This document shows, piece after piece, positions 27,128 through 38,767 of a DNA stretch of 38,767 nucleotides. Below the pieces are notes generated by a model. It did not search any database. It was not told where the DNA came from and saw only the letters and a program-made list of their open reading frames with translations. The translations under genes and the position numbers were made by a program. How positions within the stretch are numbered: position 1 is the first letter of the stretch; each line of letters begins with the position of its first letter. Location of the stretch: contig CAMOYX010000003.1 in NCBI GenBank assembly GCA_946630615.1, positions 1-38,767 of the forward strand. Direction: 5' to 3'. The stretch comes from an uncultured Mycoplasmatota bacterium. GTDB lineage: Bacteria > Bacillota_I > Bacilli_A > RF39 > UBA660.

Positions 27128-28208
27128 CTAACTTTTAAGCAAAGAATCTAATAATTCTGAAATATCTCCATCTAATATTCTGTCTGCATTACTTGTTTCA
27201 TATCCACTTCTAAGATCTTTAACAAGTTTATATGGATATAATACATAATTTCTTATTTGACTACCAAAATTAATAGAGACATTTTCACCTTTAATCTTAT
27301 TAAGTTCAGCTTCTTTCTTTTCTATTTCCATTTCATATAATTTACTTTTAAGCATCTTAATAGCTTCTTCTTTGTTTCTCAACTGACTTCTCTCATTTTG
27401 GCAAGTAACAACTATCTTACTTGGAATATGAGTTATACGAACAGCTGAGTTAGATGTATTTACTGATTGTCCACCAGCACCAGATGAGTGATATACATCA
27501 ATCTTTAAATCACTTTCTTTAACTTCTATATCTATATCTTTATTAAATATTGGAGTTACTAAAACTGATGCAAAGGAAGTATGTCTTCTACCAGCAGAGT
27601 CAAATGGAGAAATTCTAACTAATCTATGTACACCCTTTTCTCTTTTTAAATAACCATATGCATATTCAAAAGATACTTTTAATGTAACTGATTTAATACC
27701 AGCTTCATCCCCAGCTTCTTTATCTATTATTTCATACTTATATCCGTTATGAGTGAAGTATAGTTCATACATTCTTAAAAGCATACTAGCCCAATCACAG
27801 GATTCTGTTCCACCAGCACCTGGGTGTATTTCTAAGTAACAATCTAAATTATCAAATGGTCCAGATAGCAAAGTTTCTTTTGATAGTTCATCGACCTTAC
27901 TTTGTAATAATGGTAGCTCATTTTTAATAGCCTCTAGATCACTATCATCTAACATATTAAGAAGTTCCAAGTTATCACTTATTTGAGAATCCAATTCACT
28001 GCATCTATTAACTATCTTTTTTAATGAAGTTAATTCTTTATTAACTTGGTTTGCGTTATCAATGTCATCCCAAAATCCTTCTTCCATAGTAACTTTAGTT
28101 AGTTCATCAATTTTAACTTTCTTACTATCTAAGTCAAAGACTCCTCCATAGATCTTTAGAAATATCTTTTAATTCATTTAATTGTAATTCTAATTCTCTT
28201 CTATCCAT
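27128..28208 (-). CDS. prfB: Peptide chain release factor 2, expressed by programmed +1 frameshift
   Basis: The ATG at 28208 (GAGGC upstream) opens a 24-codon frame ending ...SKDLWRSL-TGA (TGA at 28134-28136). A +1 shift at CTT-TGA continues with GAC at 28133-28135 into the main frame, giving about 359 residues. Domains: helical N-terminal part, the SPF stop-codon-reading motif in RISPFDSAGRRHTSF, and the catalytic GGQ in HSSGAGGQSVNTSNSAVRITH. RF2 ends translation at UGA and UAA; the in-frame UGA lets RF2 level control its own synthesis. A naive reading that starts at the internal ATG at 28087 would lose about 40 residues. Confidence 0.95.
28133..28147 (-). promoter_or_regulatory. prfB recoding site (internal Shine-Dalgarno plus CTT TGA C)
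   Basis: GGAGGAGTCTTTGAC on the minus strand: the internal SD-like GGAGG is three bases before CTT, followed by TGA and C, the same arrangement as the classic bacterial prfB slip site. Confidence 0.95.
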
Positions 28209-33381: not shown

Positions 33382-33415
33382 AAAAAAAGTAACTAACTTT
33401 AAAGTTGAGTTACTT
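33382..33415 (-). terminator. Terminator of the 34453-33410 gene
   Basis: AGTAACT-C-AACTTTAAAGTT-AGTTACT stem with one bulge and seven U on the minus strand, overlapping the stop codon. Confidence 0.75.
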
Positions 33416-34453
33416 ATTTATTAATTTTTTTATTTTATCTTGCTTAAATATTCTTCTATCTCTAAAAGAATAATAATGGGAAACCTTCACCATTCTTTCA
33501 AAAGAATAATCCTCATCTAAACATCTTTTTTCAATTCTACTAATAACACCAGGAGTTAATACTTCTTTTGGAATATTAACCATATAACCACAACAAGGAC
33601 ATAAATGATAATATCTATGTTCACTATCATATGGATTAACAAATATTTCATCTTCTTTTATATAAAAACTATTACCACAAGGTGATGTGTTTCCTGCTTT
33701 AATAATCTTACTATCACTACCATTACATTCAATTTCTAAATTCCAAGGTAATTCATCATGAAACTCTAAATATATATCTTGTTTCTGATCTTCAGTTAAT
33801 ATACATCCATTGTAATCATACCTGGCAGCATCACTAGATACATAATTTATAAAATTACTTGTTTCTAGTGCTTGATATTCATTATATCTTTTTTTCTTTC
33901 TTTTCTTCTTTTCTTCTACCATACACCATGTATTATTATTACTTATATATGAAATAGAATCTTCATTTTTATATTTATCTAATAATTGATATTGTTCTAA
34001 AGCTAATATTTTTTTATTTCTTATAAATAACATTCCCGATTGCAATTCAATAAAGCTTTTAACTTCTTTTAATAACTTAGTTAAATTAGGAATTATATTA
34101 TTATTCTCTCTACTTAATAATTCTAAATTATTCTTACATTCCAATAAAAAATCAGAATCTTTTTTCTTTTCTTCTAATTCTAAATATAGCTTACTTTCGT
34201 TATATGGAATATCACTTAATAAAAAAGATTCAACATCAGATAATACTTTTTTATCTATTAATCTAATAAATACAGATAGACCATCATCAGTACTTAAAGC
34301 CAATCTAGAATTAAACTCTGATATTCTTCTAATAAATCTATCTTTTTCTTCTCTAGTTTCTTTATATATGAAAGGAGCTAAAATATACTTAGCATTAATA
34401 TATAAATACTTATATCTATTAATAAATTCTTGTTCAATATCTTTATATTGCAT
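33410..34453 (-). CDS. Hypothetical protein with C-terminal zinc-ribbon-like Cys cluster
   Basis: 347 residues, soluble. The first ~200 are helical and charged, including a run of Lys/Arg (EEKKKRKKKRY, about 180-190). The C-terminal part has Cys at 243, 259, 285, 287, 288 and 311, with HLCPCCGYMVNIP at 283-295 typical of a zinc ribbon. That could mean nucleic acid or protein binding, but no family is recognised. AGGAGATATTTC precedes the ATG. The 144-bp gap upstream of the ATG shows AT-rich sequence only. Confidence 0.75.
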   Translation of the reverse strand: MQYKDIEQEFINRYKYLYINAKYILAPFIYKETREEKDRFIRRISEFNSRLALSTDDGLSVFIRLIDKKVLSDVESFLLSDIPYNESKLYLELEEKKKDSDFLLECKNNLELLSRENNNIIPNLTKLLKEVKSFIELQSGMLFIRNKKILALEQYQLLDKYKNEDSISYISNNNTWCMVEEKKKRKKKRYNEYQALETSNFINYVSSDAARYDYNGCILTEDQKQDIYLEFHDELPWNLEIECNGSDSKIIKAGNTSPCGNSFYIKEDEIFVNPYDSEHRYYHLCPCCGYMVNIPKEVLTPGVISRIEKRCLDEDYSFERMVKVSHYYSFRDRRIFKQDKIKKLINK

Positions 34454-34582
34454 GAAATATCTCCTAACAGAATAATAATAAATTAATAAAGTGAAAGAAT
34501 AGTTAAATTACTCTGAAAAATTTTCTTAATCACTTAATATAATTATAATATAAACTTATATTAATTTAGAGTATTGACTTTT

Positions 34583-34615
34583 AAAAAAAGGTAAAAACTA
34601 TTTGTTTTTACCTTT
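34583..34615 (-). terminator. Terminator of the DUF1653 gene
   Basis: AAAGGTAAAAAC-AAATA-GTTTTTACCTTT, 12-bp stem with U7, overlapping the stop codon at 34598. Confidence 0.9.
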
Positions 34616-34900
34616 ATATAATTCAAATCTATATTTTTGTTTAACATTAGGATATTTCTCGTGATCCACTTCAGACATAAACATATCTTTAGGTCTAGCT
34701 GCAAAGTCTACTCCTTTAGTACATTCAGTTTCATATAGTGGTTTATATATAATTAATTCTTCACCATTTTCAGTATGTCTAGCACTTCCTATAATCTCAT
34801 ATAAATATAACTTAGCATTATTAAGTAATGCTTTCTCATCTTGTAGTTCTCTTTTAAAATGTTGTACTATATCTCCTTGATTAAATTCTCTATTATTCAT
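34598..34900 (-). CDS. DUF1653 domain protein
   Basis: 100 residues from the ATG at 34900 with AGAGGTG six bases upstream; the in-frame GTG at 34909 is part of that site. The sequence fits DUF1653 closely: [11 protein letters not shown] near the start, [26 protein letters not shown] in the middle, and [17 protein letters not shown] toward the end. The family is widespread in bacteria and phages with unknown function. It is a single-gene unit. Confidence 0.88.
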
Positions 34901-34959
34901 TATTAACACCTCTTAATTATATTTAATAAATATATATAAATATCTTATACTATTTACAC

Positions 34960-34984
34960 AAAAAAGCATAGTATAACTATGCTT
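34960..34984 (-). terminator. Terminator of the 35459-34977 gene
   Basis: AAGCATAGT-TAT-ACTATGCTT stem with U-tract on the minus strand, overlapping the stop codon at 34977. Confidence 0.85.
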
Positions 34985-35459
34985 TCTTTGTTCTTCTTTT
35001 AATATTTGGATTATATTTAATTTCTTCATTTATAATAGCATTTAATCTTTTTACAAAAGATGCATTATGCTTTGATGCATATTCTTTCCATAAAGGATGA
35101 GTAGGTCCAAACTTTTCTTCGTAAGAAGGTACTCCATCAATAACAATATTATCATCAATAAAAGGAATAGATCTTAATAAATTAAAGTTATTCTCTATAT
35201 CAGCTTCATCAAAACCTCCACAGCTAAGTAACATTAATGTACGATTAAACTTATTTATACTTTTATCACAACAATCACTATATAAAGTATATAAATGAGT
35301 ACCTCTAATATTTAATGAGTCACACAGTAACACATTCATAATACCTCTATCACTTTTCATCATTTGTGCAAGTATAGCAATAGCACCAGGATTACCTTCA
35401 GACATTACATAAATCATATCTTCTATAGTTGAATTACCTCTTAACTTCTCATTACCCAT
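34977..35459 (-). CDS. Conserved-looking hypothetical protein (160 aa)
   Basis: 160 residues, soluble, mostly helical in the first half (TIEDMIYVMSEGNPGAIAILAQMM), with a Cys pair SDCCDKS near 61-67 and a distinctive segment GVPSYEEKFGPTHPLWKEYASKHN near 108-131, ending in a basic tail. The well-ordered composition suggests a real family, but I do not recognise it. GGGAGGTG lies five to six bases before the ATG at 35459. Confidence 0.72.
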   Translation of the reverse strand: MGNEKLRGNSTIEDMIYVMSEGNPGAIAILAQMMKSDRGIMNVLLCDSLNIRGTHLYTLYSDCCDKSINKFNRTLMLLSCGGFDEADIENNFNLLRSIPFIDDNIVIDGVPSYEEKFGPTHPLWKEYASKHNASFVKRLNAIINEEIKYNPNIKRRTKKA

Positions 35460-35518
35460 AATACACCTCCCTGTTTAGGGCTTAGTATAACATATTTTAA
35501 ATTAAATAAAAGCAAAAT

Positions 35519-35559
35519 ATAAAAACTCGCTAGATCTCATTAATAAGACTATGCGAGTT
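35519..35559 (-). terminator. Terminator retained behind the decayed SEC-C gene
   Basis: AACTCGC at one end and GCGAGTT at the other pair perfectly, with a further inner helix, and U5 follows on the minus strand. It lies just past the last codon of the SEC-C remnant. Confidence 0.75.
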
Positions 35560-35566
35560 TAATTAA

Positions 35567-35761
35567 TTATTTAGCACAATATTGTTTATATTTCTTGCCA
35601 TTACCACATTACTTGTAATTTATGGCTTTTATAAGTTCTTGAGAGCATTTTGTAGCACTTTTGGCTATTGAATACACTTGGTAGCTACCGAGAGCATCTG
35701 GAAATTAACTATCAGGGTATCTAAAATACTTTTTAAAGATTTTCCATAATAGTTTAGCAAC
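35567..35761 (-). pseudogene. Decayed C-terminal fragment of a SEC-C motif protein
   Basis: One minus-strand frame reads about 65 codons interrupted by two TAA codons. Pieces: AKLLWKIFKKYFRYPDS, stop, FPDALGSYQVYSIAKSATKC followed by SQELIKAINYK, stop, CGNGKKYKQYCAK, then TAA at 35567-35569. The last piece matches the zinc-binding SEC-C tail (CxCGSGKKYKxCC) with its first Cys-Pro lost. The fragment starts at the 3' end of the P-loop kinase gene, as if that accessory gene replaced its 5' part. This accounts for the 294-bp gap 35460-35753. Confidence 0.6.
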
Positions 35762-36860
35762 TACCTATCTTATCAATTTTTTCTATAAATTCATTTGAAA
35801 ATTTATACCATTTAAATATTGCTTTCTTTTTCTCCATATATTTTTCTAATTCTTCATCTGTATAATTTGGATTATTGTCTTTAAATCTACTTATAGTCCT
35901 ATTGTAACAAGTATCAATAGAAGTTCTAATTATAATTATTTTTCCCTTTAAAAGATTAATATCTTTAATGCAATGAAACTGTGCGCTATCAATAACAATT
36001 GTTTTATCATATTTTTTACAATACTTTAATATCTCAGTATATATTAGATCAAAATCATCTCCACAATAGGGTAACTCTTTATATTTACTTCTAAAATATT
36101 TTCCTAATTCTTTATTGATACCAGTACTATTTTCAAATCTATGTTCAGATAATATTTCATCAGTATCAACTATTAAATATTCACTACTATTAAAATGTTT
36201 TTTAGCATAAGTAGTTTTACCTGATCCACTTTGACCTGTTAAGTTAATAACTTTATCATTAGTTAAATCTTTTATATATGGTTCTTTATCTACAAATCTA
36301 CTAATTAACATATCTGATTTTATCTCATATAAAAACTCATCTATTTCTTTGACAAGCCCATTTATATTTTTTCTATCATTTTTTCCTCCATGAGAAATAA
36401 AATCATTCCACTCTTCTAATACATTATCAATATTATTTTTATTAACTCTATCTTTAATTATTGCATAAGCTGTTTTTTTATAATTCATAATACTTACAAC
36501 ACCAAGTGCTTTATAATACGATTTTTCTGGGATATTAGAGATTTTATAAAAATGAAGAGCTAATTCATCATCAATTTTTCTTGGATTACGTATAATTATT
36601 TTATTAGTTCTAAATATTGTTGTAGCACCCTCTATTTTTATGTTTTCAGCATCATCTGGAATTTCAACATCATAAATTGTATCTCCTCTATGTAACCATC
36701 TTAAAATACAATCTTCTGTTGTATAATTAAATCCTCCAAAATCCCTTCCTTTTTCTGCAGTAGGATTCCATTTTTCGGCAATGTTAACTTCATCTAGTTT
36801 ATATTCAAACCCACCAGCATTTGATTTTAATCCATCCATTACTCTAACGTATTTGATCAT
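35754..36860 (-). CDS. P-loop kinase-like protein fused to an uncharacterised N-terminal domain
   Basis: 368 residues. Residues 1-100 form a distinctive domain (GGFEYKL, FGGFNYTTEDCILRWLHRGD, TIYDVEIPDDAE, FRTNKIIIRNPRKI), and 100-195 are helical. From 205 a nucleotide-kinase-like fold appears: Walker A GQSGSGKTTYAK at 209-220, VDTDEI at 231-236, TIVIDSAQFH, then an Arg-containing lid-like segment RTSIDTCYNRTISRFKDNNP. A kinase or zeta-toxin-like enzyme is plausible, but the substrate is unknown. AGGAGTTGATATT precedes the ATG. It is the last of three accessory genes and abuts a decayed gene. Confidence 0.75.
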   Translation of the reverse strand: MIKYVRVMDGLKSNAGGFEYKLDEVNIAEKWNPTAEKGRDFGGFNYTTEDCILRWLHRGDTIYDVEIPDDAENIKIEGATTIFRTNKIIIRNPRKIDDELALHFYKISNIPEKSYYKALGVVSIMNYKKTAYAIIKDRVNKNNIDNVLEEWNDFISHGGKNDRKNINGLVKEIDEFLYEIKSDMLISRFVDKEPYIKDLTNDKVINLTGQSGSGKTTYAKKHFNSSEYLIVDTDEILSEHRFENSTGINKELGKYFRSKYKELPYCGDDFDLIYTEILKYCKKYDKTIVIDSAQFHCIKDINLLKGKIIIIRTSIDTCYNRTISRFKDNNPNYTDEELEKYMEKKKAIFKWYKFSNEFIEKIDKIGSC

Positions 36861-36918
36861 AATATCAACTCCTATAATAATTATAATATATTCTTTAATC
36901 TCTATTTAAAAACACCCG

Positions 36919-36933
36919 TAAAAAGGTATCTAA
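36919..36933 (-). repeat. Intergenic repeat, copy 1 (TTAGATACCTTTTTA)
   Basis: On the minus strand TTAGATACCTTTTTA ends about 58 nt before the ATG at 36860. The same 15-mer with one change lies before the next gene (37889-37903), and its 9-base core TTAGATACC recurs at 35716-35724. Flanking sequence is also alike between the two full copies. Confidence 0.6.
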
Positions 36934-36973
36934 ATTGATTCAAAACATATAAACCCACAATTTTTTAGCAAGT

Positions 36974-37834
36974 TTATCTATTACCTACAATTACTTTACC
37001 ATCTAGATTACAAATATATGCCTCAGGAATTAGTGCTTTAATTTCTTTTAAAATTTCATTATCTTTTTCATATTTTCTGCCTAATAATATTCCTTCTATT
37101 AAATTTGATGGTAAGCCAAATAAAATTGCTGATTCCCTATCTGTAAAAAAATCGTCTTTATATTTTCTTTGTTTAATAAATTTTTCATAATAATCTTGAT
37201 TAACAAATGGTTTAACGTCATCATCATTTATATTATTCGGATTTAAAATATCTCCTTTTAACAATTCTAAAGAGTGATTATTATTACCGCTAAATATTAT
37301 ACCGATTTGTACCCTATCTTGAACTAAACTTGGCATAAATCTTGCTTCCTTAGTTTGTTCTAAAGTCCACATATGGCAATCTATTTTTGATACTGTATCT
37401 AAAATATTATTCATCTCGTTATATGGAATAACTGCTGTTTGATTCTTTTTGGTATCAACCCCATTCTCAAAAATTCCACTATACATTATAGTTCCACCTG
37501 AATAAAAATTAATATAATCTTTTAAATAATAATCTTTTTTTAAGTTCCATACACCAACACTACTTGGATATTTAGAAAGTCTTCCATCTATAAACCAACT
37601 TGATATTAATCCATCTTTTAATATTTCTTTTAGACCATCAAGGTTTTTATATGTTCCATGTAATAAAGTTCCTTTTTTTAATTTTACTGTATCTCCAAAA
37701 TTATATTTAGCTTTATCTATAACACTATTTTTAACTTCATAATATTTTTTAATTTGCTCTACTAATTTTTTCTTTCCTTTTTCATCAAGCAGCATATTTT
37801 CATTAACTATATTTATATATTCTTCTTTAGTCAT
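36974..37834 (-). CDS. ADP-ribosyltransferase-like protein (candidate)
   Basis: 286 residues, soluble. After a helical start (1-45), residues 55-85 read LLHGTYKNLDGLKEILKDGLISS, the His-Gly-Thr plus GL..I...GL pattern of ADP-ribosyltransferase folds (DarT, Tpt1 and PARP-like). The C-terminus has LPSNLIEGILLG (241-252) and IPEAYICNLDGKVIV (269-283), similar in order to the last strands of such enzymes, with E247 a possible catalytic Glu. The match is by eye and remote. Neighbours are an ABC-type ATPase and a P-loop kinase fusion, as in defence or toxin loci. AGGAGTGATAATTA precedes the ATG. Confidence 0.65.
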   Translation of the reverse strand: MTKEEYINIVNENMLLDEKGKKKLVEQIKKYYEVKNSVIDKAKYNFGDTVKLKKGTLLHGTYKNLDGLKEILKDGLISSWFIDGRLSKYPSSVGVWNLKKDYYLKDYINFYSGGTIMYSGIFENGVDTKKNQTAVIPYNEMNNILDTVSKIDCHMWTLEQTKEARFMPSLVQDRVQIGIIFSGNNNHSLELLKGDILNPNNINDDDVKPFVNQDYYEKFIKQRKYKDDFFTDRESAILFGLPSNLIEGILLGRKYEKDNEILKEIKALIPEAYICNLDGKVIVGNR

Positions 37835-37888
37835 TAATTATCACTCCTATATTAATTATGTCATACTTATTATCATTCAAAAGCCATT

Positions 37889-37903
37889 TAAAAAGGTGTC
37901 TAA
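37889..37903 (-). repeat. Intergenic repeat, copy 2 (TTAGACACCTTTTTA)
   Basis: 14 of 15 bases match copy 1 and it ends 54 nt before the ATG at 37834. The following block (TATAGGAGT then GATA) before the start codon is also shared. Confidence 0.6.
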
Positions 37904-37933
37904 TTTTTGAAAATATAAAAATATTACATTTAT

Positions 37934-38758
37934 TTATTCATCAAATTCTTTGCTATGTTCCTTAAAAAAACTACTATATACTTTTACATTATCAAGTTCT
38001 GTCCACTTTTTCGCTTTAACTGGAACAATATCTAAATCATATATTTTTGCTCCATTTAGCGCTAATAGAAATGGTGAATGTGTTGCAATTATAAATTGGC
38101 AATTATAATATCTCGCAGACTCCTCAATGAATGTTTTTAATTTTAATTGATTCTCAGCGGATAAACTATTTTCAGGTTCATCTATTATATATAGTGCATT
38201 ATCTTCAATTTCATTTTGCCAAAAATCTAATGCTGTTTCTCCATTTGATTCTTGTATAATATTATTATTTCTTAATCTAGTTCTAACATATTTTGATACA
38301 GTCATTCTATTAGAATCCACTTTATTTTTTAAATCTTCATATTGACTTAGACTTGAGTTATATCTTTCTGAAGATGCATTTTTATAGTCATAGTACTCGT
38401 TTATCAAATCTTCTTTTCTTCTATTAACATTTGAATTAATAGCTCTTAAATCTAACAAACAGTCAAATACATCGTCACTCGAAATGTATTTAATACTTTT
38501 ACATTCACTTAGATGTATCAATTCACAATGTTCTCTACATTTTCCTACATACTGATCAAAAAATTCACCTTTTTTATCAATATTTCTTTTAGAAGCATTA
38601 ATTGAATCACTAATTATATTTAAAAGAGTTGTTTTGCCAGAACCATTTCCTCCATAAAAAATAGTTATTGGCTCAAATTCTATATTTTCAAATTTTTTGT
38701 TAGGAAAAATTTTTAAAGGATAGAAATTGTTATGAATATCCATCTTATGCATAATCAT
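37934..38758 (-). CDS. ABC-type AAA ATPase (AAA_21/OLD-like, no TOPRIM)
   Basis: 274 residues as read. Walker A FYGGNGSGKTTLLN (34-47), a helical insert of about 100 residues, the ABC-like signature SNGETALDF (171-179), Walker B ALYIIDEPENSLS (188-200) and the switch His in ATHSPF (225-230). It has the head of SMC/Rad50/OLD-type ATPases without a nuclease domain, the kind often found in defence loci. The start is uncertain because the window ends 9 bp upstream: ATG at 38758, or internal ATGs at codons 3 and 6. No ribosome site is visible. Confidence 0.85.
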   Translation of the reverse strand: MIMHKMDIHNNFYPLKIFPNKKFENIEFEPITIFYGGNGSGKTTLLNIISDSINASKRNIDKKGEFFDQYVGKCREHCELIHLSECKSIKYISSDDVFDCLLDLRAINSNVNRRKEDLINEYYDYKNASSERYNSSLSQYEDLKNKVDSNRMTVSKYVRTRLRNNNIIQESNGETALDFWQNEIEDNALYIIDEPENSLSAENQLKLKTFIEESARYYNCQFIIATHSPFLLALNGAKIYDLDIVPVKAKKWTELDNVKVYSSFFKEHSKEFDE

Positions 38759-38767
38759 TGAATATTC

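Follow-up and report, generated by a model that had tools for sequence, protein, structure and literature searches.

The stretch of DNA examined here (the window; 38,767 bp) is contig C3 of a draft genome from an uncultured Mycoplasmatota bacterium (GenBank assembly GCA_946630615.1; 800 kb in 71 contigs, 87% complete). Its genes have relatives in metagenome-assembled genomes titled Erysipelotrichaceae, Bacilli, Tenericutes and the like, many of which carry gut sample names. At the right-hand end of the window three open reading frames (ORFs) follow one another on the minus strand (37934-38758, 36974-37834 and 35754-36860), separated by gaps of 99 and 113 bp, and encode an ATPase, a protein resembling ADP-ribosyltransferases (ARTs; hereafter the transferase) and a fusion protein with a P-loop kinase domain. 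Their G+C content is 0.245-0.255, and they are as AT-rich as their neighbourhood. The original prediction, made from the sequence alone, had recognised three same-strand genes at this place, as the ORF positions confirm, and had proposed that they form a single antiphage or toxin-antitoxin set. The evidence presented here favours another account, in which the genes would have been gathered separately through site-specific insertion at the 3' end of secA. The features concerned are these:

37934-38767, minus strand: ABC-type (AAA_21/AAA_15) ATPase of the PtuA/AriA kind, with approximately 14 N-terminal residues cut off by the contig end
37895-37903, minus strand: TTAGACACC motif, 31 bp after the ATPase stop codon, with no secA tail beside it; putative relic of an arm-type site
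36974-37834, minus strand: 286-aa protein of an undescribed family, with a predicted ART-like fold
36925-36933, minus strand: TTAGATACC motif, 40 bp after the transferase stop codon, with no secA tail beside it
36306-36860, minus strand: N-terminal domain of the fusion protein (residues 1-185), a stand-alone protein elsewhere, of no recognised family or fold
35754-36305, minus strand: P-loop kinase domain of the fusion protein (residues 186-368), likewise a stand-alone protein elsewhere
35716-35724, minus strand: TTAGATACC motif at -116 from the secA tail; the putative arm-type sites of other arrays lie at -118
35567-35608, minus strand: orphan secA 3' end (CGNGKKYKQYCAK, stop), immediately preceded by an in-frame stop codon; presumably the right attachment site of the array
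27128-28087, minus strand: prfB (release factor 2), the gene directly after secA where the site is empty

The sequence TTAGAYACCYT occurs seven times in the whole genome: once after each gene of the block, three times on contig C5, downstream of secA and beside accessory genes, and once on contig C11. The C11 copy looks like a chance occurrence; the other six all stand beside accessory genes of C5 and the window. It was this motif, common to the gaps of the block, that led to the finding of arrays at secA. The ORF at 35460-35753, previously read as a decayed gene, is not a degraded accessory gene but contains the orphan secA 3' end listed above, which encodes the SEC-C tail found at the end of the real secA on C5 (CPCGSGKKYKQCCGK, stop). 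In this genome secA itself lies on C5 (5134), and tails are present at C5:3587 and at position 35608 of the window.

Such repetition is not peculiar to this genome. Of 98 sampled genomes of the family, at least 14, this one included, proved in a codon-degenerate search to have two or more copies of the tail on the same contig and strand; a control with the reversed pattern found none. Such rows of tails usually lie downstream of secA and enclose accessory and defence genes; eight orphan tails follow the real secA over approximately 18 kb in one genome (G058), and six in another (G039). When the frame was read upstream from each tail, 13 real secA ends had approximately 820-840 open codons before them (one being cut by the edge of its locus) and the 39 orphan tails had 0-52 (two were counted twice, in two loci that overlap). 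No array holds more than one real secA. The orphan tails share approximately 45 bp, from CCA to the stop codon, and stand at the borders of cassettes.

The TTAGATACC motif is closely tied to these tails. Among its 45 occurrences, 39 are no more than 260 bp from a tail, a zone that makes up 4.5% of the sequence (a few being counted twice in overlapping loci), and its main positions relative to the tails are -118/-130 on one side and +97/+109 or +124/+135 on the other. From this spacing, the motifs would be arm-type sites of an integrase, flanking the core. A role as a promoter element only was considered and is unlikely, since the last gene of the block, too, has the motif behind it, and the spacing between motif and tail is constant on both sides. 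The recombinase linked to the site is a tyrosine recombinase of approximately 430 aa, with Arm-DNA-bind_4 and SAM_3 domains in a Tn916-like arrangement. It is present in 30 of 141 genomes, and in 11 of those 30 loci a secA tail lies 230-300 bp before the integrase start; it stands directly after secA in G005 and G094, and a broken form lies downstream of secA in G061 and G083. Empty sites were found in G026 and G096, where prfB follows secA directly and the motif is absent. In G005 the order is secA, array, prfB.

SEC-C motifs also occur in proteins other than SecA, and the tails might be thought the remains of ordinary SEC-C genes, or of tandem duplication of secA, rather than attachment sites. 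We find this hardly credible: the orphans have 0-52 open codons before them, share their 45 bp, occupy cassette borders and are flanked on either side by motifs at constant spacing, and the empty sites lack the motif. The open-frame test also rules out the tails as real SEC-C genes.

A Tn916-like tyrosine integrase would thus recombine a core of approximately 45 bp that consists of the last codons of secA; each insertion would keep secA intact and leave an orphan tail at its far end, and repeated insertion would produce tandem cassettes with accessory genes for defence, nucleotide handling and other purposes. The block's three genes would then be separate cargo at the distal end of such an accretion array. 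Recombination through the linked integrase presumably built the arrays. Because prfB lies in the window and G005 shows the order secA, array, prfB, contig C5 most likely joins the right end of the window, making the block the distal end of the C5 array. Accretion at secA accounts for the tails, the motifs, the empty sites and the independence of the three genes, and very probably it is the container of the block. The whole statement, comprising the array and the functions proposed below for its cargo, we regard as likely.

Several observations weigh against this reading. The join between C5 and the window was not assembled. The genome has no match to the linked integrase at E <= 1e-60. Neither of the motifs in the two gaps of the block adjoins a secA tail, and both would have to be relics. 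A secA tail lies within 8 kb of the transferase gene in only 6 of the 79 transferase loci, so this gene must also travel by other means.

Relatives of all three gene families of the block occur inside secA arrays of other genomes. The array of G039 holds the closest relative of the fusion protein (71% identity) together with an ATPase relative, transferase genes are found in the arrays of G083 and L153, and another lies between two tails in L134. Among the cargo of arrays in other genomes are also an AbiZ-like protein, HD and nucleotidyltransferase proteins, the RhuM-type protein PDC-S05, which is a defence candidate, and a retron reverse transcriptase (RT) accompanied by an ATPase related to that of the window; past the final tail of the G058 array there is a UG26-type RT. 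No conjugation or mobilisation genes were noticed in the array units viewed, although no model search for such genes was made. Arrays of three genomes (L022:2199-2672, L239:15841-16314 and L242:8928-9401) repeatedly carry a protein of 157 aa that weakly matches the MGMT DNA-binding domain (E 4e-4). A phage origin of the block was considered and rejected: tblastn of the transferase and the fusion protein against 50,697 phage records gave nothing, and a scan of viral contigs contained no transferase relative.

Accretion of integrative and conjugative elements, integrative and mobilisable elements and cis-mobilisable elements at one chromosomal site is known (PMC5704250, PMC7563491). The secA arrays resemble it in having tandem elements between direct repeats of a gene 3' end, units with and without an integrase, and an integrase of the tyrosine type, but the target here is secA and the units are mostly of 1-4 kb. 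Repeats of the target-gene 3' end at the junctions with secA left intact, empty sites in relatives, and a linked recombinase (in relatives, not in this genome) were all found. The staphylococcal cassette chromosome (SCC) at rlmH/orfX is likewise a cassette array with repeated attachment sites at the 3' end of an essential housekeeping gene, but SCC elements use ccr serine recombinases, whereas a tyrosine integrase is linked to the secA site. Integrons also consist of rows of small cassettes, promoter-bearing or of a single gene, many of them lacking a recombinase; the repeat here is instead a secA tail, and both the arm motifs and the integrase are Tn916-like (no model search for attC or IntI was made). 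The secA array is probably a variant of known accretion. A limited search of the open-access literature turned up no paper describing attachment at secA, a result that does not in itself establish novelty.

Whether the three genes belong together can be judged from the company that their relatives keep. None of the 79 transferase loci was found to contain an ATPase relative. The commonest partner of the transferase is one NUDIX family, present in 14 loci, always within 4 kb and operon-like in 11, and in a set of 103 direct neighbours of the transferase, too, no Pfam family is more frequent than NUDIX. It is followed by an ABC-transporter group (13 loci, operon-like in three) and a His-phosphatase (12), and then by the domains of the fusion protein (10 loci, all no more than 4 kb away and operon-like in seven), an HD protein (8) and a HIT-like protein (6), the last with a Pfam HIT match of E 0.08 and an HVHFHF motif. 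These recurring partners indicate that the transferase and the fusion protein share a shuffled but recurring set of nucleotide-handling genes. One transferase locus also contains nine tandem paralogues of approximately 200 aa (cluster c7; L154:1383-6894).

A single dedicated system, with the ATPase as sensor, the transferase as effector and the kinase as partner, would suit the common strand and short gaps, the recurrence of the transferase with the fusion domains in 10 of 79 loci, and the use of this kind of ATPase in defence. Relatives of the three genes lie mostly apart, however, and largely on different contigs; the 79 transferase loci lack an ATPase relative; and an array-type motif follows each gene of the block. 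We consider such a system very improbable. Defence genes do occur around the relatives, as had been anticipated, but the trio was not found together in the 79 transferase loci. The other possibility raised at the outset, independent insertions, comes close to what we propose, with the secA array now suggested as the mechanism. That argument had cited a leader of approximately 100 bp before each gene. The leaders exist, but promoter-like sites in the block do not exceed those in shuffled sequence (33 against 37.9 expected, an uninformative result), and the terminator scan placed no terminator between the three genes. An Rfam search gave zero matches.

The transferase belongs to no convincing family in Pfam, NCBIfam, PADLOC or PHROG; none of 74 aligned sequences of its family scores well in Pfam, and a profile search of the PDB gave no relative. 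Relatives are encoded in 16 of 145 genomes of the same family, in 37 of 288 sampled from the order, and in 123 stretches of a GTDB-based collection. An AlphaFold2 model based on the 74-row alignment was confident (pLDDT 96, pTM 0.92). Its top six matches in a Foldseek search of the PDB are E. coli DarT1, Thermus DarT (two entries), yeast Tpt1, M. tuberculosis DarT and the guanine-specific ADP-ribosyltransferase ScARP, and Scabin ranks eighth. DarT1, DarT, Tpt1, ScARP and Scabin are all ARTs with nucleic acid or nucleoside substrates. The early guess at an ART is supported by this ranking, the top six all being ARTs, but by no match singly: the best has an E-value of 0.018 and the TM-score is approximately 0.3, which counts against our reading. 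Support for the fold comes from the agreement of the top ranks, not from single E-values. A viral fold search returned only uncharacterised proteins (best E 0.002).

The HGT pattern on which that guess had been based is present as LLHGT, with H59 and G60 invariant in 74 relatives. Also invariant across the 74 sequences are Y107, Y111, S112, E163, R233 and E234, and H59, Y111 and E163 would fit an NAD site of the H-Y-E type. Beyond the fold ranking, the family resembles the DarT/Tpt1/ScARP branch in its HG(T) motif on an early strand and its invariant H, Y and E; it differs in having no sequence match to a known family and in its extra N-terminal helices, and no macro-domain partner is found among its commonest neighbours. 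The family is probably an undescribed branch of the ART superfamily. Its most likely activity would be the transfer of ADP-ribose from NAD+ onto nucleic acids or nucleotides, and its partners, at least in some genomes, would be the NUDIX, HIT-like, phosphatase and kinase-fusion proteins.

Two more specific functions were weighed. The transferase could serve phage defence as a DarT-like effector, ADP-ribosylating DNA or nucleotides; its counter-enzyme would be the NUDIX protein. DarT1 and DarT head the fold matches, the distribution of the transferase is patchy, and NUDIX is the commonest neighbour; on the other side, no macro-domain family appears among the 25 commonest of the 110 Pfam families represented in the 103 direct neighbours, and most loci have no fixed partner. 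This is plausible, though we lean against it. Alternatively, it could be an RNA-repair enzyme like Tpt1/KptA that removes 2'-phosphates, with the fusion kinase as a Pnkp-like partner and the NUDIX protein clearing ADP-ribose. The only PDB sequence matches of that kinase below E 0.01 are 4jst, 4gp7, 4gp6 and 4mde, which we take to be the Pnkp kinase domain. Tpt1 ranks third by fold, and a KptA-NUDIX fusion is on record (PMC9503650). The absence of an RNA ligase or 2H phosphoesterase from the common neighbours speaks against this function, which we think rather doubtful. The NUDIX partner fits both functions alike.

The ATPase has the complete motifs attributed to it (Walker A GGNGSGKTT, an SNGE signature, Walker B ALYIIDEPEN and an H-loop ATHSPF) and matches AAA_21 (3e-12) and AAA_15 (1e-11) in Pfam. 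The gene itself is incomplete: its frame is open up to the contig end and most relatives, at 283-295 aa, have approximately 14 extra N-terminal residues, from which it follows that the window edge truncates it and that 38758 is not the true start. Its matches to PADLOC profiles (best 6e-17) liken it to the retron and Septu ATPases (PtuA, AriA), as does the position of 3 of 19 relatives, which adjoin a retron Ec107/III-A-like RT. Most relatives, however, are shorter than PtuA and stand alone. No RT lies beside the window gene on its visible side; the other flank is beyond the contig end. We infer a defence-type ATPase unrelated to the transferase. In L234 (11467-13497) an ATPase relative and the Ec107/III-A-like RT form a cassette between two secA tails, and the same pair occurs in L063 and L065; it is possibly an undescribed retron effector arrangement.

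The fusion protein was correctly described as an intact Walker A kinase-like domain joined to an uncharacterised one: the Walker A motif lies at approximately residues 203-212, behind some 185 residues that match no Pfam family. The second domain (AAA_33 6e-6, PRK 2e-5) is a P-loop kinase of the adenylate kinase/dephospho-CoA kinase/Pnkp type. Residues 1-185 and 186-368 correspond to separate proteins in many genomes. The N-terminal domain stands alone on C5 of this genome (L022:2784-3344), the two are separate but near each other in G114, and they are joined in G039, G057, G075 and G102. A PDB profile match of residues 88-162 to GCN5 acetyltransferase (E 0.001) was judged to be chance, the predicted structure there consisting mostly of helical repeats.

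Two features of the remaining window may be recorded. Between the secA-tail remnant and prfB, proteins of 347 and 160 aa flank a DUF1653 gene (33410-35459); neither has a family match, nor a relative among the fetched loci. The prfB gene has a standard-looking programmed frameshift site (AGGAGTCTTTGAC, CTTTGAC at approximately 28133-28139) upstream of its main frame (27128-28200).

The integrase-free cassettes may have been captured in trans, as in integrons, or may be decayed elements. A tentative extension, which we would not yet favour, is that secA 3' ends form an integron-like capture platform, at which a Tn916-type integrase acting in trans collects small integrase-free cassettes with core and arm sites of their own, their cargo including a new module (ART, NUDIX, HIT-like protein, phosphatase and kinase fusion) that would use NAD+ in defence or repair. 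How such cassettes are captured is a question that the arrays themselves raise. As a protein-coding gene, secA would join those whose 3' ends are used as insertion sites, and the site is easily found by sequence, from its repeat of approximately 45 bp and motifs at set distances. The secA arrays would provide a fixed address for the discovery of new genes of accessory function or defence across a large group of uncultured gut bacteria. The transferase family, a probable undescribed branch of the ARTs, has a recurring enzyme neighbourhood that is directly testable.

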